Source of the DNA: Brachypterus glaber
Lineage: Eukaryota > Arthropoda > Insecta > Coleoptera > Kateretidae
Assembly (NCBI GenBank): GCA_958510825.1
Contig: CAUEHQ010000001.1
Location: forward strand, 248,001-312,000
Length of the DNA: 64,000 nucleotides
Reading direction: 5' to 3'
Every line of letters begins with the position of its first letter. Within the stretch, counting starts at the first letter, position 1. A program made the position numbers and the translations under genes. This document shows positions 7,223 through 50,300 of this stretch, piece by piece. The notes beneath the pieces were generated by a model that had not been told where the DNA came from, did not search any database, and saw only the letters and a list, made by a program, of their open reading frames with translations.

Positions 7223-9774
7223 TTGGCCAATAAGACAATTAAGATTAATTTTATTTTTCAATATATTTTTTTTTCAATATTACTTTTTTTTAATTTTTTT
7301 AAACTATTTTAATGGATATCTCCGGAATGGCTTATCCGATTTTAAAAATTAAAAATGAATTTTAATCAAAATAAAAATACCTTTCAAATCATGATATACG
7401 ACCCATATTGCTATTTGAGATTGTAAAGTTGGCGTTGCTGGGGGTTAGGTAGGGACACTAGATCTAGGGTTAGGGGGTGAGTTTTAGAATAGAAAGCTTA
7501 CTGAAAATATCTAATTGACCTGCTTTTTGAATTTTTGATATCTCTTACAGTTTTCAAGATAATGCTTGTAGGAAAGTTAATGGAGGGTGTATATTTATTT
7601 TTTAACTTTTTTGTAAAATAAATTTGGTTTTTAGACAATTAAATTTTATTTTTTTTGAGTTTTTTTTTGTCTTTAGATAAAGTCCGATATACTGGGTGTT
7701 TCAGGAATTTTTTTGGCACTTCCCGTTTCGCCATTTTGAAAGAAAAAAAATTGTTTTTTTAGGTTGTACACTTAATATTCCTTTATACCGTGCCGTGTTG
7801 AAAAAAAATTAAAAAAATCTTTGTGCCTCAAAAAAATGAGAAAACTAAAGGGATAGAACTTTTAAAAAATTGCTGTGAGTGACCTCTCCATTTTTTCAAA
7901 AATTATGAAAACAATCAGGGATTATACTCCTACCCCAGTGAACAAATTTGGGGGTGAAACCTCAAAAAAATTTATTTTAAAATTTTGGTGGGTCCCCGTT
8001 AAAAATTAAAAAAACAAAATACAGCCAGATAAATACCGAATGTTTTAATTCCCATTACGTTAAAAAATCCATCTTCCGAAAATTTGACAGTAAAAAAAAT
8101 CTTAAAGGCACATCCTTTTTTTATAAGTCAGCCAAATTTAATTAAAAAATATTTATAAATGCAAGATATACAGACATTTAAAAAAATGTGTTTTTTTTTC
8201 TTAAAAACCCTGTATATAAAAACTGTGGGGTCGTAGCCCAAATCTGAAAAAAGATTTGGAATCAGGAGAAAAAATGCTTCAAGATTTTTAAAAATATATT
8301 TTTTTTTAAATAATAATTTATTTGCAGTCTTGAATTATGCAAAATTTTGTATTACTCTTTATAAATTGGTGTCCCAGTTTCAAATATTTATAAGCAGTAT
8401 AGTTTCTATGGCCTTGTCTACACAGTTAAAATATGTTTATTTACGTTTAATCCAGTACCTATTTAGATAATTAATGTAATCTTACTGACACAACATAGTT
8501 ATGCATAGGTGAATATTGTATTAAACTGATTTATATATACAAACACAATATTTAATAACTTTAATAAAAAATATAATTTTTAATTATAATTATCCGTCAA
8601 TGTAATAAAACCTCGAATAAAATTTTGCAAACATGAAAATAAATAACTCATGGCTCCCCGATTTATTATTTTTGTATTCTAGATATTACCTAACACCCCT
8701 ATTGGGGGGGGGGGGGGGTTAGCCAAAATATGAAATATCTACATCCTTTAATAAAGCGAGAAACGGGTATGAAGTGTATGAATGTTGGTCAAATTGCGTG
8801 ACGTATTTTATGGACGACCCCTTAAAGGGGCAATTTAATGAAGGTGGGGAGAAGAAAGCATAATTTTTCCAATTTTTCGACTAAAGAATTCCAAACTTTT
8901 ATCCATGACTAAATGTGACTTAATAAAGGTCATTACTACCTCAGTATGTCACCTACCGTAAAATTCTTAGTAAATATACCTGTGACAAAGACTAAGTTTT
9001 TAATCCTTTTATCCATGACTAAATGTGACTTAATAAAGGTCATTACTACCTCAGTATGGCACCTATCGTAATATTCTTGGTAAATATACCTGTGACTAAG
9101 ACTAAATTTTTAATCTTTGCCTGTGACTTGCCAACTTTTTCTTGTGATTAGTAAACTTATGAAGTAAAAATATTAAAGTTCATTTGCGAATTGGCAATTT
9201 TATATTTATACCTTCTGGAAAATCAAAAATGGTAATAAATTGCCAACTTCTCTATTTTATATGCATGAATTTGCCATCTTTTTTTTCAACATTCAATATT
9301 GTACATAGGTAGGCTCTGCCAATAACCTCCCTTAGCTACGGCTCTGACGTAAAATAAAAATTCAAAAAGTTTTAAAACCTTTAACCCTTTCGCTTCCTAT
9401 CCAGAAGCTTGCATAGGAACATAAAACATAAGAATGCGATGCCGTGATTGGCTTACAAGATAAATGGCGGCACATCAAGCCAATCACGGCTTCGCATGTT
9501 ATGTACTATGTTGTTATGCGAGCCTGTGGATATGCCCTAAGAATCCAAAAAAAAAAGAAATTCATTAATTTGACACACTAACTGGGTTTCTTTGTGCAGG
9601 GTCACATAGCGTTTTAAAGCTGCTCAAATATATCCTATTAGTAACTTATAGTTAAGTATGGATATAATTTGATATCAAGTTTGGAATATAAAATACTAAT
9701 ATGTCCCTGTTCTGTGCATTATAAATGTTCTTTTTGGCTATATGATTTGATAAACATCTGCTGGGATATATATA

Positions 9775-10004
9775 AATTACGTTGCAACCTTGCCGTAAGA
9801 AGTTTTTAAAAAGTTATTTTAAAGTTTTTTGAAGTATTTTATTGAATTACAAATTTATTAAATAATGTTAATAGTTTACAATATAATTACAGATTGATTG
9901 AAAGAAAGTAAAAAGCTACATAGGTAAACTATGCTGACAAAACAATATACATTTTATTATATAAACAATAAGTTGCTGAGTAGCATGACTCCGGTCATGT
10001 AACT
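9775..10004 (-). repeat. 3' LTR of the retroelement
   Basis: Second copy of the 230-bp LTR, at the env end of the element, flanked by TATA at 9771-9774. Confidence 0.95.
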
Positions 10005-10015
10005 CCTCCCTCCTC
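10005..10015 (-). promoter_or_regulatory. Polypurine tract
   Basis: On the - strand GAGGAGGGAGG lies immediately before the 3' LTR, where the plus-strand primer of reverse transcription is expected. Confidence 0.85.
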
Positions 10016-11570
10016 AAAATGAAGCATCCCCTGGGAGGTTGAAGTTCTGTCCGGGGGGGAGTGGTTGGAGTTCCTCTTCCTGTGGAATGGGTTCTCTCTT
10101 TCTCTCCTGGATTCGGCTTCTGATGAATTTCAGTCCAAAATATGTTAACGCCATGACGATTACCACGTAGAGGGAAATGGTCATGATGCTTGGGGTGAAA
10201 ATATCTTGTTGATTTTTCTCCATTGGTATAACTGCATTTTCCGAAATTTCGTTTAATTTCAGCGTTTTTAGGTTTATTTTTAAATTTTGTATTTGTCGGT
10301 CCTCTATGGCAAGGTTTAAATTATTTACGAGGGCAGGCTTTCCAGATGATTTTTCTTCGAAAAATAGCTTGTTTTGTTTGAAAAAAATTTCGCAGTTTTC
10401 TTCTTTTATGAGGTAAATTCCTTGAAGTGACTTAGTTTCGCTTTCTTCGTTGCATTTAATGTGGAGTTTTTCTTCGTTGGGAAATACTCCGAGAAACTGG
10501 TTAATTTCCGGGATGACTTCCATATGGTTTTCGGTAATATCAAGTTTTATATACGAGCATGAGTGTGAGTTTTCCTGTAGGATAATATTCTTCTCACAAG
10601 TCACATCCTGACTTGCTTGCAAATAGTTTGCGCATTGAAACCTTTTGCCCTTTTTCCAAATGTCATTCAATGGTACAAATCCATTTTCTTTTGACTTTAA
10701 TAAATATTTAGTTTTTGGAATTATCGTCACAAACTCTGATTTGAACAGGGTAGGGATGGGTGTGAGGCGGTATAATTCAAAATCTGTTTCGTAATTTATT
10801 GGGAGGGATAGAAAATATGTTATTCTTGTAGGCTCAATTTGACAGTTAATTTGAATAAGGTTTTCAAGTTCTAAAATGTTTTCGTATTTTAACTCCACTG
10901 GGAGTTGGTTTTTATAGTGTTCGGCGATTTTTCTAATTTCGAGGAATAATTCATCTGTTTTTATTATGCTAGGGTGCATTGTTTTCAACTTACAAAATGT
11001 TATCGAGTTTTCGATATCCGTTAGAATATTTAAAATTGTATTATATATAATTAAAATTTGGTTATGGAGGTCTTGTGCAAACAACATAAAAATTTGGCTC
11101 TGAACTTTTTCGTTCATGAAGTTATTTAATTGTAAAATTTTATTTTTTAAAATATTTTCATTATGCTGTATTTCTTGTAGAGTATCATTAAAATTTTGTA
11201 TTAGTTTTTGATTAATAGAGTATTGTTGATTTAATTGCGACTGAAAGTTATCGTTTTTCTTGCGAATGTCGGTTAAAATTTTGTATATTTTTTCACCGTC
11301 ATTTGCATCTAAATTACCTGTAATGCCCTTAATTATGGTTCCAAAACCATTAATAAGTCCCCGTTTGTTTCTTGTGAAACTTTCGTTATACCCTAAATTA
11401 ATATGATTAATTTTTTCATAAATTTTTCCCTGTGTATAGTTAATAATTTTCTTATAATTATCTAATTCTCTACTATAAAAAGTTTTGTTAATCTTAAGTA
11501 AATCTAGCCTATTATATTCTAAGTTAAGTTTTTCGAATTGGTCGAAAAGTGGTTGTAATTCGTAGGACAA
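10014..11570 (-). CDS. env: Env-like membrane fusion protein
   Basis: A 518-residue frame after integrase whose first listed codon is TTG; the frame is open upstream to a stop near 11608. It has a furin-type R-N-K-R site (residues 67-70) followed by a glycine-rich hydrophobic stretch and a helical region. A single membrane segment is near residues 461-482, and a polar cytoplasmic tail of about 35 residues follows. This layout fits the baculovirus F-like Env of errantiviruses. It lacks its own ATG and signal peptide; both could come by splicing from the leader (donor at about 17451, acceptor at about 11586). Cysteines are few and lie mostly in the C-terminal part. Confidence 0.85.
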   Translation of the reverse strand: MSYELQPLFDQFEKLNLEYNRLDLLKINKTFYSRELDNYKKIINYTQGKIYEKINHINLGYNESFTRNKRGLINGFGTIIKGITGNLDANDGEKIYKILTDIRKKNDNFQSQLNQQYSINQKLIQNFNDTLQEIQHNENILKNKILQLNNFMNEKVQSQIFMLFAQDLHNQILIIYNTILNILTDIENSITFCKLKTMHPSIIKTDELFLEIRKIAEHYKNQLPVELKYENILELENLIQINCQIEPTRITYFLSLPINYETDFELYRLTPIPTLFKSEFVTIIPKTKYLLKSKENGFVPLNDIWKKGKRFQCANYLQASQDVTCEKNIILQENSHSCSYIKLDITENHMEVIPEINQFLGVFPNEEKLHIKCNEESETKSLQGIYLIKEENCEIFFKQNKLFFEEKSSGKPALVNNLNLAIEDRQIQNLKINLKTLKLNEISENAVIPMEKNQQDIFTPSIMTISLYVVIVMALTYFGLKFIRSRIQERKREPIPQEEELQPLPPGQNFNLPGDASF

Positions 11571-11636: not shown

Positions 11637-13289
11637 TTATGTTGCGGATGTCCGCTGCTCGTCCGCATGTGAGCAACCTGGAATAGATAAATCTTGTTGA
11701 GTTTTTGAGTTACTGTTTTTTCTAGGGCGTTTTATATTCGAAAGGTGGATTTTATCTATGGTATTAAAATGGGTTGGGTCAATTTTTGCGGTTTTTAATT
11801 TCCAGTTTATATTTTTGATTTTTTCTTTTTTGAATTTATTTTTGGTTTTTGACTGTTTTTGTTTATTTTTAACGAATACTTTTTCGGGTATACTTTTGGG
11901 AATTTCTTCACGTTTTTCATTTAATTTGTTAATAATTTTTTCTTTCGTCTTTTGTGCGTCTTTGTTTATTTTTTGATATAAAATTTTGGTTTTTTCTTTA
12001 TGGTTAAATATATAGTTATTCATTAATTGTTTGTTCAATTCTAAGTTAAAGGGTGAATCTGTGCCTAAGTGTCCTGTGATTATTTCTGAAGGTTTTAATT
12101 TTGTAGTGCTATGTATTGTATTATTATAGGCCAATATTGCATAATTTATTTTTATCTCAATTGGCTCGCTCTTAAAAATATCTTGGTTATTAAGTAACCT
12201 TATGTGCTCGATTAGGGTGGAGTGAAATCTTTCTACTGGAGAATTTGAATCGGGGTGTTGCGAGCTTATGAAGTGGATTTTGATTTTATGGAGTTCTAGT
12301 AACTCTTTTAACACACCGCTATTAAACTCACCACCATTATCCGATACGATTTGTTCGGGGATGGAATGGTGCGTAAAATATTTTATGAGATTATTTACTA
12401 CTTCTATGCTTGAAGCAGCACTTAGTTTATACGCTTGACTATATTTTGAGAAAGTGTCAATTATTGTAAGAAATTTAGATTTTTCTAGGGTGATACTGTC
12501 CATGTGTAAAATTTGGAATGGTCTAGTCGCTGTCGGTGTCAAGTTAAATTTTAATTTTAGGGGGTTTCTGTCGTATTTCGTAAGTTGGCAAATTTCACAG
12601 TTATTTATGTACGTTTGAATCACACGACGTTGATTCGGAAAATAGTACGACTCTTTTATACGTTTTTCGGTTTCTTCGATTCCCCGGTGGTTCGTTTTTC
12701 CCTCGTGAAAATTTTTTATAATTTCTTTTATTTCTACCTCCCCTATTACGTCTGTAAGGTATTTTGTACACCTAATTAAATTTATTTGTCCATTTTTAAA
12801 ATATGTTTGTAATACAGCACAAAATTGTTCATAGATTGGATCCTCGAAAAATACATAATACTTAATTTTTGGGGCGATATATTCTTTCATAATTTTTATT
12901 ACATCTTGTTCAAAATTATTTTTTGACAATTGAACAAGCATTCTTTGTTTTGATTTATAGAGGATAACGATTGAGGGGGTTGCAGGGGCAAATTCTACTA
13001 GTGAAAGAATAATTTGGTTTTTGCCATAATTGACTGGACAAGTTACTATTGGGACACCAATAATTGGGTTTTCCGCGTTAGAGTGTACTGTATTAAGATC
13101 GGTTTCTGTAGGTTGTTCCGCTTGCTTAATATTTTCTTCCCGCTCTAAGTCGTCAAGGTCCCCTGTTTCAACAATTATAGACATATTGTCTGAGTCTTTA
13201 TTCGCGGAAAAGCTGTCGTTAAACTTTTGCATATAATCTAATAAGGGTTCATTAATATTGTCTGTAATGTCAGGTTCGTCATTTGTCAA
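11637..13289 (-). CDS. pol: Pol part 2: integrase
   Basis: A 550-residue frame in the same reading frame as pol part 1, beyond a single UAA and one codon. Its first codon is TTG. Residues 1-190 are a linker with an acidic start. An HHCC zinc finger follows (H-E-G-K-T-N-H near 195 and C-E-I-C near 233). The catalytic core has D in H-M-D-S-I, D in S-D-N-G-G-E-F and E in S-P-V-E-R-F-H, the last two 35 residues apart (DD35E). The tail is very lysine-rich. It inserts the cDNA into host DNA. It needs either readthrough of the UAA or another way of starting, or the UAA is a fresh mutation. Confidence 0.92.
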   Translation of the reverse strand: MTNDEPDITDNINEPLLDYMQKFNDSFSANKDSDNMSIIVETGDLDDLEREENIKQAEQPTETDLNTVHSNAENPIIGVPIVTCPVNYGKNQIILSLVEFAPATPSIVILYKSKQRMLVQLSKNNFEQDVIKIMKEYIAPKIKYYVFFEDPIYEQFCAVLQTYFKNGQINLIRCTKYLTDVIGEVEIKEIIKNFHEGKTNHRGIEETEKRIKESYYFPNQRRVIQTYINNCEICQLTKYDRNPLKLKFNLTPTATRPFQILHMDSITLEKSKFLTIIDTFSKYSQAYKLSAASSIEVVNNLIKYFTHHSIPEQIVSDNGGEFNSGVLKELLELHKIKIHFISSQHPDSNSPVERFHSTLIEHIRLLNNQDIFKSEPIEIKINYAILAYNNTIHSTTKLKPSEIITGHLGTDSPFNLELNKQLMNNYIFNHKEKTKILYQKINKDAQKTKEKIINKLNEKREEIPKSIPEKVFVKNKQKQSKTKNKFKKEKIKNINWKLKTAKIDPTHFNTIDKIHLSNIKRPRKNSNSKTQQDLSIPGCSHADEQRTSAT

Positions 13290-13292
13290 CTC

Positions 13293-13295
13293 TTA
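13293..13295 (-). other. In-frame UAA between the macro domain and integrase
   Basis: The pol frame stops with UAA, then GAG, then TTG opens the integrase frame without any frame change. The UAA is the only break in what would otherwise be one pol frame of about 1,540 codons. Confidence 0.9.
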
Positions 13296-16268
13296 GCAGA
13301 ATTCTTCTATAAAGCTGGAAATAGCACTTTTATTATTTTCGTGATTAGTGACGTTAATTTCAACTTTTTGGGGTGGGTCAATATTGTAAATAAGTATTTT
13401 AATTTTAGAGTTTTGAAATATAATTTTAATTAAATTAAGTATGATATCCCATTTTAGGTTATCTAGGCCGGATCCAATTTTTGGCATAGCTACAGTAAAA
13501 TCTTGTAGCTCTAAACATAATCTTTTGAGGCTTATCAAGGCGGAAATTATAGTAGTGTAGGTGGGTTTGTCCCTAAATATCTTTTTGGTAATTAAATAAT
13601 AAATATTTCTTGTAGGAAGTTTTAAATATGCAACTTCACCTACAGGTTTGTTTTGTGCTTTTAGTGTGTTTACGCAATTAAATTTTTCCCTGAAATTACG
13701 GGCGATTCCTTTTTTCATGCTAAAACACTGGGAGACGCAATGAGCAAGAGATATATTCTCGTCACAATTAAATAGATCATTGTCGATTATTTTTACATTA
13801 TTATTAATTATATTAAGGTTATTATAAATTATTTGACGAAGAGTTTCATTTTTATAAACGGCGTCTGAAAGTTCATTTAAATTTATTTCGTACGTGGGAA
13901 TAGATTCGCATATATTGTCATCGTAATCTGATACTTCCTTATCTTTGAAACTCGTACGTGACTTTATGTTATTTTGTAGAGGTGAATTACTTATAGTATT
14001 TTTATTGTAATTATTACTTAAAACTTGGGCATAAGTTAAGTCAGTGGCGTTACCGATTTTTTTTATTTGGGGGGGTTCGTTTGTGGGGTTTTGTAGTTGG
14101 TCGGGATTTTTGGGAATATCGGTTTCTGGGTTTATTACGATGCGTGACAAGGCATCTGCGTTACTATTAAGGACACCTTTTTTATAAATAATTTCATAAT
14201 CATATTCTTCTAAGTACAACCGCCACCTACATAATTTGGAATTAGGTTCTTTAAGGGAGAACAACCACTGCAAGGGTTTATGGTCAGATACTATTGTAAA
14301 TTTTCGGCCATAAAGGTAGGGCCTAAAGTATTTAACAGCCCAAACGATTGCTAGGAGTTCCCTTTCGATAGTACTTAGATTACATTCTGATTCGTTAAGG
14401 GTGCGACTTGCGTAAGCTACTGGCAAATCAGAGCCTATTTTCCCTTGTGACAACACCGAACCTAAAGCAAAACTAGAAGAGTCGCAAGTTAGAATGAAGG
14501 GTTGATTAAAATCTGGATACTGCAGTATGGGTTGGTTAATCAACAAATTTTTACAATGGTTAAAACATTTTACATACTCGGGGTCCTTAATATTAATTTT
14601 ATGATTCTTTTTCAGACAGATAGTCATAGGTTTAGTTATTTTCGCAAAATCTTTTATGAATTTGCGGTAATAACCCAATAGTCCCAAAAAAGCCTTAATT
14701 TGTCGTGTAGTTTTAGGAATAGGATAGTTTTGAACAGCTTTAATTTTTTCAGGATTCGGTTTTACGCCCTGGGGTGTCACTATATGACCTAAAAACGCTA
14801 CTTCTTTTTGCAAAAATTCGCATTTATCGACTTGTAATTTAAGATTAGCAGATCGCAATCTATCAAAAATCTCTTTGAGATTGTTTATATGTTCTTGTAA
14901 ACTTGTACTAAAACAAATGATATCATCAAGAAATACGCAGCATTTTTTATTTAATATACCCCTTAACAGGTTGTCCATGACCCTCTGGAATGTGGCTGGG
15001 GCCGTTTTAAGGCCAAAGGCCATGCGCAGGAATTCATAGTGACCATTTTCTGTGCTGAAAGCAGTTTTTTGAATATCCTCCCTAGCCATTTCCAGCTGGT
15101 GATAACCACTGGCTAAATCCATTGTACTAAAGTATAAACAACGTCCCAACTTGTCCAATAAGTCCGTAATGTTCGGCAATGGGTATCGGTCATCAATAGT
15201 TTTTTCATTTAATTTACGATAGTCAACTACTATGCGCCATTTGCGTTCAGCAAAAGGGGCACTTTTCTTGGGGACCACCCAAATTGGCGAACTCCACGGG
15301 CTATAAGAGGGTCTTATGATTTTTTGTTGTAACATTTTTTTAATTTGTTTATCTACCTCTTGCTTATGGACATTTGGAAAACGATAGGACTTTGTGTACA
15401 CTGGTATTTCGTCTTTAGTAACTATTTTATGTTTAATTTTATGCGTAAAAGTTAAGGGTTTTCCTTCTGAATGAAAAATATCAGAGTACTCATTTAAAAG
15501 ATTTAAAATTGCTTGTTTTTCCTCTGCATTCATATGATTTATTTTAATTTTAGACAGATCAATTGGCGAGTTATCGCAATATGTATTAATATTATTAAAA
15601 TTAGAAGCTGTGTGGTGTTCGTATTCGTCGAACATTTGCACAGTTATTGGGTTTATTTTAGCAGAAATGTCCCTATCTGTAGGGTTAACAATACTACAAT
15701 AAGTAGAAAAATCTTTTACACTGGCTACGCTTTCTATTATTTCTAGATCACCAGCTTTCATGTGAGGAATTATTACGTCACCATTTTTAACATTTTTAAT
15801 ATTTATTTTAATAATTTGTTCTGTCTTGGCAGGGACGACTATGCTGTCGGCCCCACTAGATAACTCAAGGTAGTGAATTTTGATTCTGCGGGATGGTGTA
15901 ATTAATACATCATTATGCAGGTCGACAATCGCGTTTAATTTCTTTAGGTTATCTAAGCCTAGTAGACAGTCAAATTGTTTATGAAAGTTGAACATATGAA
16001 ATTTAAGATTAATGTTATTTTTAAACAATTTGCCACACGGGATCTTTGTACTATACTTTTCCAAGGAAGTACCGTGTGCACTAGATATTAAAAATGGGTC
16101 ATGTATAATATTCCTAGAAAAAAATTTATTTGCGATGTCATGTTTAACAAACGACTTTGTGCTACCACTATCTAATAAAACTTTTAAATTTAAATCTGGG
16201 TAAATTATATAGCACAATTGACTTTTTTCGTTTGTTAAACTCATGATATCTATTTTTCCGAGGCTCAA
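13293..16268 (-). CDS. pol: Pol part 1: protease, reverse transcriptase, RNase H and a macro domain
   Basis: A 991-residue frame in -1 relation to gag. Its first codon here is TTG, so it is most likely expressed by frameshift. Order: aspartic protease (L-L-D-S-G-S-T near residues 31-37); reverse transcriptase with V-D-Y-R-K-L-N, S-G-Y-H-Q and the catalytic F-L-D-D-I; RNase H (C-D-S-S, then E-R-E-L-L-A, then S-D-H-K-P-L). A linker of about 120 residues follows. Residues about 823-963 form a macro domain resembling OARD1/TARG1: S-L-A-H-C-V-S, K-K-G-I-A, G-E-V-A-Y-L-K, Y-Y-L-I-T-K-K, K-P-T-Y, then M-P-K-I-G-S-G-L-D. The frame ends with UAA (13295-13293), and integrase continues in the same frame one codon later. 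An extra enzymatic domain between RNase H and integrase is not part of the standard gypsy pol layout. Confidence 0.93.
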   Translation of the reverse strand: MSLGKIDIMSLTNEKSQLCYIIYPDLNLKVLLDSGSTKSFVKHDIANKFFSRNIIHDPFLISSAHGTSLEKYSTKIPCGKLFKNNINLKFHMFNFHKQFDCLLGLDNLKKLNAIVDLHNDVLITPSRRIKIHYLELSSGADSIVVPAKTEQIIKINIKNVKNGDVIIPHMKAGDLEIIESVASVKDFSTYCSIVNPTDRDISAKINPITVQMFDEYEHHTASNFNNINTYCDNSPIDLSKIKINHMNAEEKQAILNLLNEYSDIFHSEGKPLTFTHKIKHKIVTKDEIPVYTKSYRFPNVHKQEVDKQIKKMLQQKIIRPSYSPWSSPIWVVPKKSAPFAERKWRIVVDYRKLNEKTIDDRYPLPNITDLLDKLGRCLYFSTMDLASGYHQLEMAREDIQKTAFSTENGHYEFLRMAFGLKTAPATFQRVMDNLLRGILNKKCCVFLDDIICFSTSLQEHINNLKEIFDRLRSANLKLQVDKCEFLQKEVAFLGHIVTPQGVKPNPEKIKAVQNYPIPKTTRQIKAFLGLLGYYRKFIKDFAKITKPMTICLKKNHKINIKDPEYVKCFNHCKNLLINQPILQYPDFNQPFILTCDSSSFALGSVLSQGKIGSDLPVAYASRTLNESECNLSTIERELLAIVWAVKYFRPYLYGRKFTIVSDHKPLQWLFSLKEPNSKLCRWRLYLEEYDYEIIYKKGVLNSNADALSRIVINPETDIPKNPDQLQNPTNEPPQIKKIGNATDLTYAQVLSNNYNKNTISNSPLQNNIKSRTSFKDKEVSDYDDNICESIPTYEINLNELSDAVYKNETLRQIIYNNLNIINNNVKIIDNDLFNCDENISLAHCVSQCFSMKKGIARNFREKFNCVNTLKAQNKPVGEVAYLKLPTRNIYYLITKKIFRDKPTYTTIISALISLKRLCLELQDFTVAMPKIGSGLDNLKWDIILNLIKIIFQNSKIKILIYNIDPPQKVEINVTNHENNKSAISSFIEEFC
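13380..13800 (-). other. Macro domain (OARD1/TARG1-like ADP-ribosyl hydrolase) inside pol
   Basis: This segment of pol matches the small macro-domain enzyme OARD1/TARG1 along its length. Seen in order are D-L-F-N-C, S-L-A-H-C-V-S, M-K-K-G-I-A, G-E-V-A-Y-L-K, I-Y-Y-L-I-T-K-K, K-P-T-Y and M-P-K-I-G-S-G-L-D. In human OARD1 the catalytic pair is a lysine in the L-I-T-K segment and an aspartate in the G-L-D segment; both are kept here. The family removes ADP-ribose from glutamate/aspartate residues and deacetylates O-acetyl-ADP-ribose. A role against host ADP-ribosylation, or in element RNA or protein handling, is inference. Confidence 0.85.
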
Positions 16269-17440
16269 TTCTCTAAAAAAGATGAGTCATCTTGATTTTT
16301 ATTTAAATTTTCCTCCGGAAACTCTACTTTCGGCGTATTATGCAAGTTGAAAACCTCTTCTATTTGAAAATTAGGCGTTCTAATTTGATTATTTGAATTA
16401 TTTCTATTATTAAAATTTTGCCTAGCATGGGACATATTAGTGTTTCGCGTAGAAACACTCATTGGAGTTGGTCTCGGTAACCTTACATTAGGGTTTGGCC
16501 TAAACACATCATTTCTGGAGCTAGGCCCTGGCTGATTTTGAAAGTTTGTATTTGTGTTATTATTATTAAAACCATTTGGCCTTGGCTGGAAATTTTGTGG
16601 GTAATTTGTTAGTTGCAATTGCCTAATATTTGGCAATTGCTGCCTTCCTTGTGTAAAGTTACGATTATTATTAAAGTTTGGCTTTTGTCTAGGATTTTGG
16701 CTATAAGAATTTCTAATTATTTGGTCATTTATTTCTAATTGAAAATCGTTCGTTAGCATATTTAACGCAGAGTTCAGATCTTCTGGATTTTTGGTTCGCA
16801 TTAAGGATCCTATTGGGTCTCGGAGGCCCCTCAATAAAACCCTTAAGGCGTATTTTCTTAAGTATGCGGTTAAAGTTCCGACCTCTTGTGCATTACCATG
16901 ATGCACCGTTAAATATGCTATCTGAAGGTTAAGTAGCATAAGTATACTATTGTAAAAATCGAAAACTGACTGTTTGAGCCCTTGCTTTAACTCTGTCATT
17001 TCCAATTGCAAGCTGAAAACGTCGCGTTTATCGCTATATGTATTCTGGAGTGCTAATTTTAAGTCATTCCAGTTATTCAGAATGCAAGAGGATATTTTAG
17101 TTGCGGCATCGCCCTTTATTTTAGCCAAAATGCTAGACATTAGGTACTCATTCTGAAAGTCCGTCGGGTCATTAAGGTTATAAAATTTATTGACTAATTT
17201 TTCACATATATCGATGAATCTAGGAAGGAGTTCTGACTCGCCCCTAAATTCAGGGATCATGTTCAAGTAGTCGGCTTTCAGAACGTTAGCCATGTTTAAA
17301 TTTAAATTATTTATTTCGGGAATGGGGTTATTTGTTTCTATTATGGTAAGTTCTAGTTCAGAGTTTGTTTCGGACTCGGAACTGGACTCAGAATCGATTA
17401 AAGTATTTTGAAAATTGAATCTGCAATCACTAAATGACAT
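16265..17440 (-). CDS. gag: Gag protein
   Basis: A 391-residue frame starting at an ATG just after the leader. The N-terminal half is an acidic stretch (residues about 15-45) and then a helical capsid-like region. The C-terminal third is rich in Asn, Gln, Pro and Arg (about residues 245-345) and suits RNA binding. I see no CCHC zinc knuckle; many errantivirus Gags also lack one. Its role is to form the intracellular particle that packages the element RNA. It ends at UGA (16267-16265). A T-TTT-TTA slippery heptamer lies six codon-positions or fewer upstream, and pol continues in the -1 frame. Identification rests on position, length and composition more than on a diagnostic motif. Confidence 0.85.
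   Translation of the reverse strand: MSFSDCRFNFQNTLIDSESSSESETNSELELTIIETNNPIPEINNLNLNMANVLKADYLNMIPEFRGESELLPRFIDICEKLVNKFYNLNDPTDFQNEYLMSSILAKIKGDAATKISSCILNNWNDLKLALQNTYSDKRDVFSLQLEMTELKQGLKQSVFDFYNSILMLLNLQIAYLTVHHGNAQEVGTLTAYLRKYALRVLLRGLRDPIGSLMRTKNPEDLNSALNMLTNDFQLEINDQIIRNSYSQNPRQKPNFNNNRNFTQGRQQLPNIRQLQLTNYPQNFQPRPNGFNNNNTNTNFQNQPGPSSRNDVFRPNPNVRLPRPTPMSVSTRNTNMSHARQNFNNRNNSNNQIRTPNFQIEEVFNLHNTPKVEFPEENLNKNQDDSSFLEN
16274..16280 (-). promoter_or_regulatory. -1 ribosomal frameshift heptamer between gag and pol
   Basis: On the - strand the gag-frame codons read T-TTT-TTA, the X-XXY-YYZ form of a -1 slippery site, just before the gag stop. Slipping back one base enters the pol frame, which has no stop here. 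Any stimulating RNA structure downstream was not examined. Confidence 0.7.
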
Positions 17441-17452: not shown

Positions 17453-17610
17453 GCAAATGGTCGCTGCTATGATGTCCTTCATCTGTGATGTGCACTCACA
17501 CTCGAAGAAAACTTTTTTTTGTAATTTCTCTTGTTTGGAAACTACCAGGTTCTATCACCAACAAATCGTCGAAACGAATCAATTTTATGCTAAATTGATT
17601 GGTGAAAACT
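17453..17610 (-). other. Leader between the primer-binding site and gag
   Basis: About 160 bases of untranslated leader. The only features I see are a short ATG-started frame near 17484 and the splice donor at its end. Packaging signals cannot be recognised by eye. Confidence 0.6.
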
Positions 17611-17623
17611 GCCGACTGCGCCA
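17611..17623 (-). promoter_or_regulatory. Primer-binding site
   Basis: Directly after the 5' LTR the - strand reads TGGCGCAGTCGG, sharing the last T with the LTR. TGG at this place is the usual start of a tRNA primer-binding site. From memory the sequence resembles the serine-tRNA site of the 17.6/297 group; the tRNA identity is an inference. Confidence 0.8.
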
Positions 17624-17852
17624 ATTACGTTGCAACCTTGCCGTAAGAAGTTTTTAAAAAGTTATTTTAAAGTTTTTTGAAGTATTTTATTGAATTACAA
17701 ATTTATTAAATAATGTTAATAGTTTACAATATAATTACAGATTGATTGAAAGAAAGTAAAAAGCTACATAGGTAAACTATGCTGACAAAACAATATACAT
17801 TTTATTATATAAACAATAAGTTGCTGAGTAGCATGACTCCGGTCATGTAACT
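17623..17852 (-). repeat. 5' LTR of the retroelement
   Basis: A 230-bp direct repeat of 9775-10004. On the - strand it begins AGTTACATGACC and ends GCAACGTAATT. I saw no difference between the two LTRs. TATA follows at 17853-17856 as target duplication. Confidence 0.95.
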
Positions 17853-22900: not shown

Positions 22901-23458
22901 ATAACTCATGGCTCCCCGATTTATTATTTTTGTATTCTAGATATTACCTAACACCCCTATTGGGGGGGGGGGTTAGCCAAAATATGAAGTATCTACATCC
23001 TTTAATAAAGCGAGAAACGGGTATGAAGTGTATGAATGTTGGTCAAATTGCGTGACGTATTTTATGGACAACCCCTTAAAGGGGCAATTTAATGAAGGTG
23101 GGGAGAAGAAAGCATAATTTTTCCAACTTTTCGACTAAAGAATTCCCAACTTATCCATGACTAAATGTGACTTAATAAAGGTCATTACTACCTCAGTATG
23201 GCACCTATCGTAATATTCTTGGTAAATATACCTGTGACTAAGACTAAATTTTTAATCTTTGCCTGTGACTTGCCAACTTTTTCTTGTGATTAGTAAACTT
23301 ATGAAGTAAAAATATTAAAGTTCATTTGCGAATTGGCAATTTTATATTTATACCTTCTGGAAAATCAAAAATGGTAATAAATTGCCAACTTCTCTATTTT
23401 ATATGCATGAATTTGCCATCTTTTTTTTCAACATTCAATATTGTACATAGGTAGGCTC

Positions 23459-25051
23459 TCCCCCGAAAAAGCCGAAGCATTTGCCGACACAATGCAAGAT
23501 CAATTCAAACCAAACCCCCCAATTCCTGACCCCGTACCAGAAACCGACTCTGAACCCGATTCTGACGACTCTGACTACGAGCAACTCACGCACGAAAGAG
23601 AAATAAAGCACACCTACGATAGAATCACAACCCAAGTCGAAAACGACATTATCACCCCCACAACCCCCGAGGAAATCAAAAGTATCATCAAAAATCTCCC
23701 AAAAAGAAAAGCCCCCGGCCCAGACCAAATACCGAACAAAATCTTAAAAATTCTCCCCCGCAAAACCATTATGGCCATCGTTAACATTATTAACGCAATG
23801 CTCAGACTGCGACATTTTCCAAAGTCCTGGAAAAACGCAGATGTAATAGTAATCAAAAAACCCGGTCAAAATCCGACCTTTCCCCAAAGTTATCGCCCCA
23901 TAAGCCTCCTATCCTCCCTGGGCAAAATAGCCGAGAAAGTCATCTCAACCAGACTCCAAACTTTAGTTGAAGAGCTCAATCTCCTACCAAACGAGCAATT
24001 CGGTTTCCGAAGCAGACACTCCACAGTCCACCAGGTGGCTCGCCTAGTAGACTCAATTACAGATGGATTAAATAGGCGCGAAGCCGCGGGACTGATCCTC
24101 CTGGACATCGCAAAAGCCTTTGATAAAGTCTGGCACATAGGTCTTGTAGTCAAACTTCATCTTCTCGGCCTCCCCCTAGGCATCACCAAGCTCATAGCCT
24201 CCTTCCTTGAAGGCAGAGACTTTCAAATCAAAATAGGCGACTCTAAGTCCAGCACTCGCCCCATCGAAGCTGGCGTTCCACAAGGCTCCCCACTATCCCC
24301 CCTTCTGTACAATCTCTTCACCGCAGATATCCCAAAAACACAGGCTACTGAAATAGCCCTGTTCGCCGACGATACCGGCATACTAGCAAAAGCTAAAAAC
24401 CCCCAGCGCATCCATACCGCCCTCCAGCGCCAAATGGATGCCCTAATAAAATGGTTCTCCAAATGGAAAATCAATGTAAACGCTAACAAAACAAAAGGCA
24501 TTCTAATCTCTAGGATTAGAAGAGGCCCACCCCAACCCATTCAGATAAACGGCCAAGCCATTAACTGGGAAAACCATGCCAAATACCTTGGCATTACCCT
24601 ATCCAAAAATCTTACGTGGAATCAGCACGTCAAAAATACCCTCCAAATAGCAAACATCCGCCTCTCCAAACTCTACCCTCTTATAGGGAGAAAGAGCCCC
24701 CTATCAATTAAAAACAAACTTCTACTTTACAACCAAACTCTAAAGCCAGTACTCCTCTATGGAGCACCAGCCTGGAACAAAATCACCCTTAAAAAAACGC
24801 TCTCAGCCAAACTCCAGGCCTTTCAAAACAAGGTACTCAGAATATGCATTGATGCCCCCTGGTTCATGCGGAACAACCAAATTCACAGAGATCTCGACAT
24901 GCCCCTCCTAAAAACGGAAATCATCCGATACAGTAAGTCTTTTATACAAGACAATTTAGACCACCCAAACCCCCTCATCTCAAATTTTCTAGATTACGAT
25001 CACGAAATCCACTACACTTACAAAAAGATCAAAAATGTCCTCAACCAGTAA
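23459..25051 (+). CDS. Jockey-like reverse transcriptase (ORF2 C-terminal part)
   Basis: About 530 codons of ORF2 with the endonuclease missing through 5' truncation. Reverse transcriptase motifs in order: K-A-P-G-P-D-Q-I-P-N, S-Y-R-P-I-S-L-L, Q-F-G-F-R, L-L-D-I-A-K-A-F-D, A-G-V-P-Q-G-S-P-L-S-P and the catalytic F-A-D-D-T. After that come the thumb region and a C-terminal tail with L-L-Y-G-A-P-A-W. This order fits the Jockey clade. The frame has no internal stop, so the insertion is recent. It cannot move by itself without the missing N-terminal part. Confidence 0.92.
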   Translation, partial: SPEKAEAFADTMQDQFKPNPPIPDPVPETDSEPDSDDSDYEQLTHEREIKHTYDRITTQVENDIITPTTPEEIKSIIKNLPKRKAPGPDQIPNKILKILPRKTIMAIVNIINAMLRLRHFPKSWKNADVIVIKKPGQNPTFPQSYRPISLLSSLGKIAEKVISTRLQTLVEELNLLPNEQFGFRSRHSTVHQVARLVDSITDGLNRREAAGLILLDIAKAFDKVWHIGLVVKLHLLGLPLGITKLIASFLEGRDFQIKIGDSKSSTRPIEAGVPQGSPLSPLLYNLFTADIPKTQATEIALFADDTGILAKAKNPQRIHTALQRQMDALIKWFSKWKINVNANKTKGILISRIRRGPPQPIQINGQAINWENHAKYLGITLSKNLTWNQHVKNTLQIANIRLSKLYPLIGRKSPLSIKNKLLLYNQTLKPVLLYGAPAWNKITLKKTLSAKLQAFQNKVLRICIDAPWFMRNNQIHRDLDMPLLKTEIIRYSKSFIQDNLDHPNPLISNFLDYDHEIHYTYKKIKNVLNQ

Positions 25052-27009: not shown

Positions 27010-29220
27010 ATTGATATATGATATGATGAATTGATATGGCAAATGCTGACTGGCAGATTTTTAGTACCATTAAAGATGTAAACTTTCTCTCTAATATCCT
27101 AATAAACAGATACAAATCTTCAGTAGAGGAGTGTTTCCTTTAAAAAAATGTATCAATAGCGGTAAACCACCAGTTAAATGGTTTAACAAGTTTTTATTTG
27201 ATTTGCGTGATAAAGTATCTTGCTTGAGAATTAAAGCAAACACTACCAGACTACAAAAGGATGAAGAAAAATATAAAAAATTACGTTTAGAATACAAAAA
27301 ACAAATTATTTTTCACAAGAAAAAATCATATGAAAACTATCTAAAAAACTCAAAAAATAAAAGTAGGGACACATGGAGATTAATTGAATCGCATAAGCCA
27401 AGAAAAACAAAACCTGGCTCAAAAATTACGCATGATGAATTTAACATTTTTTTTTTCCTCCATTGCAGATAATTTAATTGACTCCATCCCTGACTCAAAT
27501 GTAAACTACAATGATTATCTTAAAAAGGCTCCATCAAATAAAAAATGCCTATTTCTAAACCCCGTAAGCCCAAGCGAGGTATATAATACAATCCTTGCCT
27601 TGAAAAATTCAAATTCTAGTGATATATATGAATTTAATTCAAGTCACTTAGAAAACACGGCTGATATAATAAAATTTCCCCTGGCTGAACTATTTAACTT
27701 GTGCCTTGAACAGGGAGTTTTTCCTGACGCTTTTAAACTGGCTAAGGTGATCCCGATATTTAAAAAAGGAGACCACAACAATACAAATAACTTTCGTCCT
27801 ATATCAATACTACCAATATTTGGCAAAGTACTTGAAAAACTAATTAATATTAGACTAATTACTTTTTTAGAAGCGAGTAATATGTTTAGCGAACGGCAAT
27901 TTGGTTTCCGCAGGGGTCGTTCGACGATTCAAGCCATCTCAAAACTATTGGAGGATGTAGTGGAGGGCCTTGAGGGGGGCGAGCATAGTAATATAACTTT
28001 GTTCGACCTCACCAAGGCGTTCGACTGCGTCCCCCATCCAAAACTGTTGGAAAAAATGAAACACTTTGGGATTCATGGTATGGCACTGTTACTTTTTTCA
28101 TCTTATCTTACAAAAAGAAAGCAATGCGTTTTTTATAATGATATGTTATCAGAAATGGTAGAGATCAATATAGGGGTCCCCCAGGGGTCCATACTGGGCC
28201 CTATATTGTTCCTATTATTTATCAACGATTTGCCCTTCTGTTTAGAACCAGAAAAAACAATTTTTTTTGCAGACGATTCGTCTATGATCAACAAAAATAA
28301 AGATATTGAGACCCTTGAAGGTAACAGTGAAATACTAAAAAATAAAATGGAAAATTGGTTTAATTCAAATAAACTAAAATTAAATAAGGCAAAAACTCAA
28401 AACCTATTAATTTCTACCAACCAAAATTTAACCTGCAACAATTCAGTCAAGCTGCTTGGTATCTTTATCGACGACTCTCTCAAATGGACAGTCCATGTAG
28501 ACTACCTGGCCCAAAAACTCTCAAGTGTCACATACTTAATAAGAGAATTAAATAAAACAATGAATACAAACATCCTTTTAACAACTTACCATGCTAATTT
28601 TCACTCACTTATAAGCTATGGTACCATTTTATGGGGTAACAGTACAAGCTCAAACAGAATATTTATTCTTCAAAAAAGATGCGTCAGAATAATTGCTGAC
28701 CTAAAATACAATGACCATTGTAGATCTTCTTTCATTAAGTTTGGTATCATGTCTTTACCTTGCATTTATATTTTTCAAACACTGCTTGACATTAAAAATA
28801 ATTTTAAAAAGCATGAAACGTTCACAAATAAACATAGTTACCCTACCAGCTCAGCAAATAAGGAATTTTTTATTAAAAAATAAATCCTTCAAATATGTTA
28901 AATCTCAAAAGAATAGTCCAGATATAGGTATTTTTAACAAATTACCAGACAGTTACAAAGACCTGCCTTTAAAAAAGTTTAAAAGCTTGGTGAGCTCTAT
29001 GTTGTGCAGGCTCTGCTTCTACTCTGTGGAGGAATATATGGATGCATCCATGGACACGCTGGATTTTACCAAATGGTAATATATCAGTTTTTTTTTTTAA
29101 ATGTAAATGTATTTGTAATTTAAATTTGCAATTTGAATATTTTGTATTTTATATATGACTTGTGTAAGAATTTTTAGAAATTTGAAGGCACCAATAAATT
29201 AATCTAATCTAATCTAATCT
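27010..29220 (+). mobile_element. CR1-like non-LTR retrotransposon with (AATCT)n tail
   Basis: An ORF2-type protein with frame breaks, followed by an AT-rich 3' UTR and the microsatellite tail AATCTAATCTAATCTAATCT. Short microsatellite tails are usual for CR1-like elements. The 5' end is truncated. A possible duplication ATAGTA lies at about 27003 and 29221 but is too short to be sure. Confidence 0.8.
27036..29079 (+). pseudogene. CR1-like ORF2: linker and reverse transcriptase, with frameshifts
   Basis: Three overlapping pieces (27036-27472, 27384-28883, 28711-29079) make one protein. Reverse transcriptase motifs seen: N-F-R-P-I-S-I-L-P, R-Q-F-G-F-R-R-G-R-S-T, F-D-L-T-K-A-F-D, G-V-P-Q-G-S-I-L-G-P and catalytic F-F-A-D-D-S. 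The third piece gives the C-terminus with N-K-L-P-D-S and F-Y-S-V-E-E-Y. Breaks lie at the A run near 27140, at the T run near 27447 and near 28850. The endonuclease is missing. The family call (CR1-like rather than Jockey) rests on motif style and the tail. Confidence 0.8.
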
Positions 29221-33800: not shown

Positions 33801-36800
33801 TTTTAAGTTTATATCTCATTCCGTTCAAAAGTTACGGTGGTTGTACCATTTGCGATATAATAATAATCTTTATTTGTGCTATTTAGGGGTTACACATGTC
33901 AAAATACATAATAATTAAAATTAATAGTATTAATAGTAGGTACAGAAAATTCATAAAATTAAATTAAAAAATAAAAAGTACACAAAACAAAATTCATATA
34001 AGTTAAAATATTTAAAGTAGTTAAAATGGACAAAAACACGAAATAAAATAAACAATTATACAGAAATTTATATATCGTTAAAATTATTATACAGATATTC
34101 GTCAGTCATATGATCATAGAATGCTTTCTTTAATAAATATTGCTTAACTTTATATTTAAAAGGTTTAATTTCTAGTTGTTTCACCCTTAGTGGCAGGACA
34201 TTGTAAAACTTTAAACTATAGTAATTGATACCCCTTTGAGTCCTGCTTAGCCTAATAAAGTCTTGACAGACGTTTTTACCGTTACGCATGTTTTTCATAT
34301 GTGCTTGGTCAAAAGTAGAATAAGCAGGAAAGTCACTTTTTGTATAAATTAGATTTTCCAGAATATAAAGACATGGTAAGTTAAGAATATTTATGAAATA
34401 AAAGCGACTTTACAGTCATCTCTCCGTCATCTCCAAATCCAATACCAGCTAGGATTCTTATCGCACGCCATTGTAATTTAAAAATGCGGTCTTTTATACT
34501 GACCCCAAAACATTTAAAAGAATAACCTTGTATAACGCGCAAACCAAATAATTTTATGCGTAGTCTATTTAAACACGACACGATTTTCTTCGGGAAATCA
34601 GGCGTAAATATGGTAAAATGAACACTTAAACATTTTTTTTTTTGAGTCGTGCCACTACTGCATTCATTAAGCGATATAATTACTAGAAAAACAGCTTTTG
34701 TTGATTAAACCTTCTATATTATTTACCAACTGAAAAAAAGGCCCGTTTTTTTTTCTGAAAAAAATACTTAAATCCTTACTTTAATAATTTTATACACGAA
34801 ATAAATATTAAATCTATTAATTTATTTTTAGCCATCCTCACATTGTACCTCAAGAACATACTATTATACTCCGAATCGGATTCAAAAATCATCTACCACA
34901 GCTTTACTATGTTCGTCTACTTCTTCCCAATACTTGGTGCTATAATTTCAGATAGTTACCTAGGAAAATTTAACACTATTCTGTACGTTTCTGTGATATA
35001 TGCAGCTGGTAGTATCATTATAGCCACTGCATCCGCGCCTTGGGTGCTACCTCAAAAAGCTTTTACCATGGTCGGACTGGCCTTGGTAGCAGTCGGTACC
35101 GGAGGAATAAAGCCATGTGTTTCAGCTTTTGGAGGTGACCAGTTTGTGCTGCCTCAGCAAGAATTGCAATTAGTAAGATTTTTTTCGCTATTTTACTTTG
35201 CGATTAACTCTGGCAGTTTAATTTCTACATTTTTAACTCCAATTCTAAGAGAGGATGTACATTGTTTTGGTAATGATCATTGCTATCCTTTGGCATTTGC
35301 AATTCCTGGTGGGTTGATGGTGATATCAATTGGTAAGCATTTTTAAATTTTTAATATACCTACCTTTTGAGCCTAGGCTATTATTTACCTAATTAGATAA
35401 ATAATATCTAATATTAGCAAATTAAATAAATAATAATTATAATATTATCTATGTTTTATAATTATAACTAAACAAAATCAATAATAAATCAAGCTCAGTC
35501 CCAGGTAACTAAGGTAACACGGTCCACCTGGAAGATTTTAAATAAAAATTTCGTGGACCCCTACATTTTTTAGACTAAAACATACCTGATGATATAAGAA
35601 ATCAATTTCCATTTGAAAGAAAATCGTAAAAGATACACTTTTTTAGAAAGATAAAAAAATGTTTTTTTGAGTAATAGGGTGTGTCAAAAAATCCCGATTT
35701 TCAAAATCGAAAACGCTTTCTGGCCACTCAAAAATGAGCCAAATTGATTAATGTTTAGAGGTAGCTCAAAGCACTCAAACTTTGAAAAATATCGGTACCT
35801 GTTTTTCGGATAAAAAGTGATTGTATATAAAATTAAGGAAATTTTGGAGGGCTTCTTTGGTAATATTTAGAAACAATACTAATTGTGAGAAACTAACAAA
35901 ATTAATTACCCTTACCCTTAAGTTAGAACATAAAAAATTATTATTTGAAGACTTCGCGAAAATTTATTAAAAATAGGGCATATTTAAGGACATAACTTCC
36001 TTGTGAATGATTTTTTGACCAAGGTGCATATAAATTTTTTCTATGTTTTTAATGTTAAATAACCACTCATTACTAAAATATTTGTTTTTGGCTTTATATT
36101 TTTTTATTTTTGGTTCTTCATGCGTAAAAATTTACTTTTAAATGCATTTATCTTTAAAACGGTTAAACCTGCGATGTTAAACCACAGAAACTTTTTTGTG
36201 TATTTTTACATGAAAAAGTATATTCCAACAAGACAAAATCAAAAAAAGTAGAGCGAAAAAAGTTTTAGGCAAAAAACAGAATATCCACCCGGTTTCGAAT
36301 TGAAATTAATTTTTTTTTTACTCAACAAAAAAATAATGTCTTCTGTATAGTCATGTAGGTTAACATGTATATATGCTTATATACTAATATATAAGTTTGC
36401 AAATTTTTTATTTAAAACTATATTTTATGCACTTTTAAAAACTAAAATGGTATTTTCGCGAATCTGCAAATAATTGGCGATTTTTTATGTTCTAACTAAA
36501 GGGGAGGGGGATATAATTTTTTTAGTTCTTACAATTAGTATTGTTTCTAAATATTACCAAAGAAGCCCTCCAAAATTACCTCAATTTTTATCGGTATCAG
36601 TTTTTATCCGAAAAACAGGTACCGATTTTTTTTGAAAGTTTTAGTGTTTTGGGCTACCTCTAAACATTAATCGATTTGGCTCATTTTTGAGTGGCCACCG
36701 TTTTTTACTAAGAAGCAACTTTTAAGCCAGAGAGCGTTTTTGATTTTGAAAATCGCGATTTTTTGACACACCCTATTACTCAAAAAAACGTTTTTTTATC

Positions 36801-47342: not shown

Positions 47343-50300
47343 TACACTCTCCCTACTATTAGAAGTTATTAATTACATATTATTCACTTTTCTCATTTTT
47401 TGTATGTTTTATAATTAAATTCTACAAAATATTTAAATTTATAAATATTTTATTATTAATGATTGGAACAAATGTAAATTTAGATGGTTTTTATATATAA
47501 AATATAATAACTATGTATTTATAAAACTTTAAATGAATAAATTGAATTAAATTGACTTACCATTAAAGTTACAGGTTAATTAAACATGGGTGTTCCTAAA
47601 ATATCGGTAAAAACATGTATTTTTTTTCTTTATTCGATATTTCACAAGCCAAAAAAGCTAGGATTGTTTTTTGTTGACAAATAATGTAGAAATAAATGTT
47701 CTATCAATTAAATTTTGTTTCATTAAAATTGATGAAGTATATTTTGAAAAATTATATCTCAAACACACCTGTCAATTTATTTGTCACGGATATTAGACAA
47801 CGCATTATTATATTTTGGGGTCGCTGAAACCGAATAAAAAAAATTGACCTGGTGGAGCAATTCTGAGGACAGATTCGGTTTCAGCTACCCCGAAAATATA
47901 AAAATGCGATGCTCTAGAATCTGGAAAACATTTTTTTTTATATTATACGCATGTGACCTCATTGTTTGAGGTTATTATTAAATGTTTAGGTTTTTGGAAT
48001 ACTAAAATAATACTAATAATACTAGAATAATGAATTAAAAAAAAAAAACGGAATATAAACGGTTAAACTAAACACTTTTACCAAAAAGCAAAAATTTATC
48101 CAAGACCTGGCAAAAATAGTTTTTGCGGAATATTGAATTTTATATTGGGCATGTTAAAACTTACGACGCGAAGAATAATACATAAAATAAAATTCGTTAA
48201 CATCGAGTAAACGGTTCTGGAGTTATAATAATTATTATATTAATAACTTCAGAACCGTTCAGTCAATGTCAACGAATTTTATTTTATAACTAACTTTTGT
48301 TAATTACTATTATATTGGACATTAAACTTAAGCAAAATTTTAGGTGCGCCTCCTTTTTTTTTGAGTTTAGTGTACAGTTTCAGTAGAAAATAACACTAGG
48401 CAACAAATCGCAACTTTTTTTTTTGCCCCGATCTGAAAGTAAATTTTTCGTTTGGACTTTTTAAATAAAAAGGTTAAAATGAAAGTGCAGAGTTTACTTA
48501 ATTGCTCATTTGTGGCAAAACTGTCAAATTTTTTTAAAAACTTTATAGAACTTAATTTGTAGATTATAAAATTCTATACAAAAATATTTATACAAATATT
48601 TTTTTTATTTTGCTTAGTTTGTTCCTAAAAAGTAAATAAATGAAAAAGATATAAAATTAAAGTACACAGTGTAAACAATTTTCCGAGCTCAAAAAATATA
48701 TTTTTCTTATCAATTTAAAGGCGCAGAATCCAAATTTGACCTTAAAAAAATTCAGCACGTCTTATTTTTTAAATTTTAGTACATGCAATTATGCCAATTT
48801 AAAAATAATTTATAAAACAAAATATTGTGTATTTTTGTTTATTTTTTTAATGGTTCTACATCATAAAAATGTTACTTTATTACATAAGAACCATAATACG
48901 TAACATTTTTTTAGTTCATTTTTGACCCCCTAGTAATGATTTTTGACAATTTTTAGCATTAGTACGTGGCGATAAGCTTGTCCCCTTATGCAGCCTTCTT
49001 CTTACCCTCCACCCCTACTTAGTTTTGTCACATTATCCTTTTTTTTAATATTTTTTTTTCATAATATCCCTATTTATTCTACCTATGAATTTAAAATTTC
49101 TATGTTTTAAGTTGGGTATTTTTTAACTAATATTGAGTCGCCGAATCCAAATTAGTCCTTGAAATATTTTTGTCTCCCATGATTTTAGAACAAAAGAGGG
49201 ATAAAATAATGATTTTTTAACATTTTTATCTTATTTTTCTCAGAAAACTTAGGTAATAGAAATATTCTGAGGCCAGATTCGGTTTCAGCGACCCAAAATT
49301 AGTTAAAAAACATATGACTCCAATCGGGGCAAGAAACCGTGTTGCCTAGTGTAATTTAATTATTTTTTTTTTAGGTTTTTATACTATTCTCCCAGACCAA
49401 ATGCAAGTGGTAAATCCTTTGCTGATTCTTAGCTTCATTCCTCTCTTTACCTACGTTGTATATCCCCTCCTTGGAAAAATTAATCTACTGAAAACACCTT
49501 TACAACGAATGTGCTGTGGAGGATTTCTAGCAGCTGCAGCATTTGCATTAACTGCTTGTGTTTCCTTAGCTCTGGAAAGCACTGATCCGGTCCTTCCAGA
49601 GGCAGGAAATATCCAGATTAGGATTTACAACCCAGCGTCTTGCCCATTAAAAGTGGAAGTTCATGATGAAGATAAATCTTTTTTGACGTTTAAAGCTGAA
49701 GTTCCAATTTTTGACACGTATACTGAAAAGAATATTCCATACACTGAAGATAAAGTAATAAGTTTTAAAATATCCAGTTGTACTACTTTGAAAGAGTTAT
49801 ATACGTATAATATTAGCCAGGCACATGCTTATGGAATATTGGTCAATACTAAGGGAATCCAAATTTTCCTTGATAATATTGAAAAGAGCGAAGATGGAAA
49901 ACCTTTATTAAGGTATGTAAAACAATGTGTGAAGATATCATAATATAATATTATCTTCATATCTTAGATATGTAATGTTTTTATTTCCATGGTAGGTATA
50001 CTCTTTGGATACATATGTGTATGTATTATTGGACGTTTGTAAGACCACCCTTGTGGGGATTTTCGCCTGAATTAAACCAGGACTGTGGGGACTTTTGTAA
50101 TTGTGGGGACTTACACACGTCCCCTCAAGTATTTTTAGCCACAGTTTCCTTATTTTTAAACTATTTTGAAAATTTCTTAGATAGAAAGTTTCCCATTTTG
50201 TATATCTCTAAATAATATTAATTTTGTCAACAACAAAGAAGTATAATAGGAAAAAAAGTAGTTTTTTAAATGACCCCACAATACTATTAAATATTTGGTG

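Follow-up and report, generated by a model that had tools for sequence, protein, structure and literature searches.

Errantiviruses, the gypsy-type endogenous retroviruses of insects, carry long terminal repeats (LTRs), gag, env, and a pol that, as described, encodes protease, reverse transcriptase (RT), RNase H, and integrase, without a macrodomain. The same four pol domains are given for the Metaviridae (PMC7879559) and are named in the accessible portion of PMC5408687. Macrodomains are encoded by other viruses, as in alphavirus nsP3 and Kadipiro virus VP8, while human TARG1 (also OARD1 or C6orf130; ALC1-like macrodomain class) is a free-standing cellular protein. Among retroelements, the epsilon-like endogenous retroviruses of ray-finned fishes sometimes include macro-domain open reading frames (ORFs), according to the accessible part of PMC4977317, citing Basta et al. 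2009. Here, we describe an errantivirus-like LTR element of 8.1 kb on the minus strand of a 64,000-nucleotide stretch of the beetle Brachypterus glaber (GCA_958510825.1, contig CAUEHQ010000001.1, positions 248,001 to 312,000; hereafter the window), in which an OARD1/TARG1-type macrodomain forms part of the retroelement polyprotein, unlike both the free-standing TARG1 and the errantivirus pol as described. The fish elements share a captured macro-domain gene with it, but, going by that citing description, they are Retroviridae in which the macro domain occupies additional ORFs. A literature search of titles and the beginnings of abstracts, covering for most queries the best 10-20 of 27 to 968 papers and with subscription journals mostly outside its reach, recovered no macrodomain described in an errantivirus or Ty3/gypsy element, and a term search for macrodomain and ADP-ribosylation in the accessible text of two papers on insect endogenous retroviruses (PMC12992720, PMC13172572) had no match. 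An earlier, preliminary description of this DNA knew of no prior account, which stood for errantiviruses within the literature searched and did not stand for retroelements at large, the fish retroviral ORFs being already in print.

The domain lies between RNase H and integrase, a placement and class first proposed in the preliminary description and upheld here by sequence, predicted fold, and conservation. Its position and that of its putative catalytic codons are as follows.

13380..13802, minus strand: OARD1/TARG1-type macrodomain, pol residues 823-963 (sequence match, predicted fold).
13584..13586, minus strand: Lys codon, equivalent of human TARG1 Lys84 (alignments; residue role per the accessible part of PMC7050489).
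13461..13463, minus strand: Asp codon, equivalent of human TARG1 Asp125 (alignments).

TARG1 was the closest macrodomain fold to the predicted structure of the window domain, at 40-42% identity in the structure comparison, versus 19-25% for the DarG macrodomains, the next-best structural kin. Among viral structures in the library, Kadipiro virus VP8 matched best (46% identity, TM 0.87 by query length), and a scan of viral contigs with the window macrodomain found no relative. Both catalytic residues, whose retention had also been claimed beforehand, aligned with Lys84 and Asp125 and were invariant in 17 of 17 pol macrodomains (including the identical sequences of L009 and L012a); they belong to 25 invariant columns out of 140, which also comprise His32, Ser35, and Gly123. 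The accessible text of PMC7050489 prints residue 125 of TARG1 as Glu125; the human chain matched here has Asp. At position 122, TARG1 has Cys, whereas the window copy has Ser. Assignment to the alphavirus nsP3 type was rejected, as nsP3 domains were not the closest kin, and a single-copy accident or chance motif match was ruled out by the sequence match, the genome copies, and the structure comparison.

Using the window domain as a query against the genome (648 Mb, 842 contigs), we recovered at least 151 matches; scoring covered 150 of 623 candidates. The best 47, including the window, were gap-free and at least 99% identical, and one further match at 99% was shorter. For 27 of these 47, the listed frame reached at least 1549 amino acids, the length obtained when the two stop-to-stop frames of the window copy, 997 and 551, are added together with the one codon that separates them. 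Frames were checked directly in 30 fetched loci, within at most 1.5 kb around the domain: the macro frame was stop-free throughout the locus in 21, and the stretch from the macrodomain through the integrase core was open in 28, the exceptions being the window copy (L023, a stop) and L017 (a frame change). A single frame is thus the common state of the family, and the window copy is an interrupted member.

Domain order was read in 19 elements, some of them interrupted copies themselves. Thirteen were reached via macro matches (window, L009, L010, two in L012, L013, L014, and L045-L050) and six were chosen from 80 matches to the Baculo_F-type env (L063-L068). The order RNase H, macrodomain, integrase was found in 13 of the 19 (window, one element in L012, L045-L050, and L063-L067), while in five (L009, L010, the other L012 element, L013, and L014) the macrodomain followed integrase and formed the end of pol, an arrangement also present in L011, outside this set. 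In L068, integrase was present and both RT and the macrodomain were not found. The six env-match neighborhoods had been picked by eye as having no listed macro match, and five nevertheless contained the domain, L068 being the exception; the env search (80 matches; 72 of 516 candidates scored) therefore yielded no clear case of a macro-less relative in this genome. Beyond this genome, P0004 and P0006 encode RNase H, macrodomain, and integrase in that order within a single protein. Additionally, P0007, annotated as a hypothetical protein in the aphid Uroleucon formosanum, combines pieces of RNase H, macro, and Baculo_F; against Pfam Macro it scores 17 bits, below the cut-off, and it matches the L009 domain at 6.5e-24.

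The domain shows signs of purifying selection at the sequence level. Across 13 elements of the RNase H-macro-integrase order, including P0004 and P0006, macro and RT-RNase H identities were correlated (Mantel r 0.775, p 0.0001). Ratios of nonsynonymous to synonymous divergence (dN/dS, NG86 method) in macro pairs were 0.087, 0.103, 0.087, and 0.105 in the four of seven pairs with finite dS, and are rough, because dS was saturated in the other three and high in these. Elsewhere, values were 0.30 for the linker preceding the macrodomain (one pair), 0.035 for RT-RNase H and 0.20 for the integrase core (one finite pair each), and 0.04-0.15 in six pairs and 0.48 in one for the N-terminal part of integrase. 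Relaxed constraint on the macrodomain is not supported at a dN/dS of about 0.1, with the caveat of the three saturated pairs. The preliminary description had named the lack of a profile hit, or relaxed constraint together with relatives devoid of the domain, as grounds for giving it up; what we found was the opposite, in that constraint is apparently strong and the related elements that were read carry the domain.

In phylogenetic reconstructions, the pol macrodomains formed one group apart from the human sequence, P0005, P0003, and a Gag-fused domain (the latter three are treated below), with support of 83/97, which is not decisive. The macro tree also united the integrase-macro elements (86/89, or 79/72 with fewer rows), while RT-RNase H rejected them as one group (approximately unbiased [AU] test, p 0.02). 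Placement of the L010 and L013 macrodomains with the window group was not firmly rejected (AU p 0.07 and 0.058), nor did RT-RNase H firmly reject keeping L010 and L013 outside the window group (AU p 0.10). This conflict between the macro tree and RT suggests that lineages exchanged the domain or that it was captured a second time; the related AU tests are not decisive, and either event may have taken place.

The remaining parts of the window element were as follows.

17623..17852, minus strand: 5' LTR, 230 bp, a direct repeat with 230/230 bases the same as in the 3' LTR.
17609..17623, minus strand: primer-binding-site-like sequence at the 5' LTR edge, TGGCGCAGTCGGCAG, read from the sequence.
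16265..17440, minus strand: gag, 391 amino acids, ORF (Pfam Retrotrans_gag 15.4 bits, below the cut-off).
13293..16268, minus strand: pol part 1, 991 amino acids, with protease, RT, RNase H, and macrodomain (ORF, Pfam); in-frame stop at its end.
11637..13289, minus strand: pol part 2, 550 amino acids, with integrase (ORF, Pfam), in the frame of pol part 1.
10014..11570, minus strand: env-like ORF, 518 amino acids, with RNKR followed by GLINGFGTIIKG and a hydrophobic stretch at the C-terminus.
10005..10015, minus strand: polypurine tract GAGGAGGGAGG, read from the sequence.
9775..10004, minus strand: 3' LTR, 230 bp, direct repeat; the element sits within a (TA)n run.

Pfam identified protease, RT, and RNase H in pol part 1 and the zinc-binding and catalytic domains of integrase in pol part 2. 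With its LTRs, its gag (Pfam match below the cut-off), and these four pol domains, the element falls among the errantivirus-like Metaviridae, and we classify it from its sequence as an errantivirus-like (Ty3/gypsy, env-bearing) endogenous retrovirus. The family is young, as the preliminary description had it for this element. The earlier claim that the errantivirus features are intact and in one frame holds in that gag, the pol domains, env, and LTRs are all present, and fails for the window copy in that a stop follows the macro part. In the env-like ORF, GLINGFG follows RNKR. A direct Pfam scan of this ORF for Baculo_F gave no match; it is 65% identical over 324 amino acids to the env ORF of L010, which matches Baculo_F at 1.8e-18, and by this indirect route the window env appears to be of the Baculo_F type. 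The TGGCGCAGTCGGCAG site is probably similar to tRNA-Ser-primed errantivirus sites, and the RNKR-GLINGFG pattern, purine tract, TGGCGCAGTCGGC primer site, and (TA)n insertion presumably fit the errantivirus type.

Elsewhere in the window, three further RT ORFs at 23411-25051, 27384-28883, and 62285-62950, two of them longer than 490 amino acids, had no macrodomain match at E 0.01. Two tandem copies of a 110-bp unit, 95% alike, lie at 8896-9115, about 0.7 kb outside the 3' LTR. Segments 34759-35346 and 49350-49943 are probable exons from a host gene for a transporter of the POT family (PTR2).

OARD1-type domains were also located outside pol. P0005, probably a cellular OARD1, was used as a query, and its top 63 matches were listed with frames of 192-517 amino acids, apparently a different, Gag-macro family. 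Eight loci were fetched, ORFs were listed in six, and two were read fully (L051 and L055); in both, a Gag/PNMA-like region (Pfam PNMA 15-16 bits, cut-off 25) preceded an OARD1-type domain with Pfam Macro scores of 20.5 and 20.3 bits, just below the cut-off. In the neighboring loci L056 and L058, a TAG separates the Gag and macro parts despite a listed 504-amino-acid frame; it could reflect decay or read-through, and frame lengths listed in the P0005 search are accordingly to be treated with care. Two copies resided in LTR elements roughly 8.0 kb long. The LTRs measure 1133 bp in one (2 mismatches) and 1142 bp in the other (3 mismatches) and are 99.7-99.8% identical.

G000:C2:61729600-61741600 and C1:96307600-96318600: Gag-macro LTR elements (L059+L061, L060+L062), each with a single sizeable ORF.

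From that ORF to the 3' LTR, scanned over nearly all of L060 and all but about 0.6 kb of L059, no further ORF exceeded 83 amino acids, and seven queries for protease, RT, RNase H, and integrase detected no pol remnant by tblastn (best E 0.42). Judged on these sequences, each seems to be a young LTR element, non-autonomous, in which a Gag-macro protein is kept, and in L059 the Gag-fused macrodomain retains the catalytic Lys and Asp. A further protein, P0003 (626 amino acids, on a 5.2-kb contig), combines an OARD1-type macrodomain with a GDSL-type esterase domain. It resembles ORF1 of some long interspersed nuclear elements, and so may be another macrodomain capture.

With the presence, predicted fold, active-site identity, domain order, family-wide conservation, and signs of purifying selection observed above, we consider it fairly likely that an OARD1/TARG1-type macrodomain of cellular origin was captured by an errantivirus-like lineage, in which it persists as a working Pol module, probably an ADP-ribosyl hydrolase. 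The activity, substrate, timing, and benefit that we infer would run as follows: produced within Gag-Pol, the macrodomain would use its Lys to attack C1'' of ADP-ribose and its Asp to resolve the intermediate, as proposed for TARG1, most likely removing ADP-ribose from element or host proteins or from nucleic-acid ends modified by host PARPs, at a time tied to reverse transcription or integration. This suggests elements that edit a host chemical signal, ADP-ribose tags, and the domain may thereby counter PARP signalling, the role put forward in the preliminary description. The host genome contains PARP-family exons (12 matches), and hence the substrate system exists. Several points weigh against a working hydrolase. 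The window pol is interrupted after the macro part, its domain scores below the Pfam Macro cut-off, and the dN/dS ratios suffer from the saturated or high dS. The pocket varies, human Gly121 being Ala in four and Cys122 being Ser in five of the 16 other aligned domains, with Gly43 replaced by Ala in L045. No host cellular OARD1 was recognized in the P0005 search of the genome, in which retroelements filled the listed matches; the host gene may be split by introns. Finally, insect-restricted alphaviruses have lost the macrodomain catalytic residues (PMC7729036), and catalytic mutations in the chikungunya macrodomain left replication in mosquito cells unchanged and had mixed effects in mosquitoes (PMC12632316), so that it cannot be taken for granted that PARPs must be countered in insects.

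A domain that merely reads the mark, binding ADP-ribose or poly-ADP-ribose and so directing the integration complex toward chromatin or DNA breaks marked by PARPs, would fit a location beside integrase, before it in 13 of 19 elements and after it in five, and the accessible text of PMC12632316 indicates that selection in chikungunya virus seems to act on ADP-ribose binding, not hydrolysis. We regard this as unlikely, since the invariance of Lys and Asp in all 17 pol macrodomains seems beyond the needs of pure binding, and the Gag-fused domain of L059 keeps both residues in an element where no integrase was found. Less likely still is that nucleic acid is the main substrate, with ADP-ribose taken off element RNA or cDNA ends to guard reverse transcription, in the manner of DarG and TARG1 on DNA or RNA. 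The placement with RNase H and integrase in pol agrees with this, as do the DarG relatives, which act on ADP-ribosylated DNA (PMC7050489, accessible part), but the sequence is TARG1-like and not DarG-like; moreover, proteins and nucleic acids are both substrates of TARG1, which makes this a sub-case of hydrolysis, inseparable by sequence. Neutral carriage of the domain, through copy number after a recent capture, is very improbable and largely contradicted by constraint. Agreement among the 47 closest copies is uninformative here because they are near-identical, but frame and active site are kept in families whose domains share only 50-74% identity with the window copy, dN/dS is about 0.1 where computable, and the macrodomain recurs in pols from other sources.

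Returning to the captured hydrolase, we raise more tentatively the possibility that OARD1-type macrodomains constitute a portable anti-ADP-ribosylation module, repeatedly recruited to two places in errantivirus pol, to a Gag-only LTR element, and to a separate GDSL-domain protein. If so, host ADP-ribosylation would be a general, so far unrecognized restriction of retroelements in invertebrates. Research on viral macrodomains has dealt mainly with RNA viruses that deploy them against PARPs, and a multi-copy, young, conserved TARG1-type domain in insect-type retroelements would add ADP-ribosylation to the known fronts on which genomes and their mobile elements meet. The domain would offer a compact, testable candidate enzyme, and the two positions that it takes in pol across elements, before or after integrase, together with the Gag-fused form, may let the function of the module be separated from reverse transcription.
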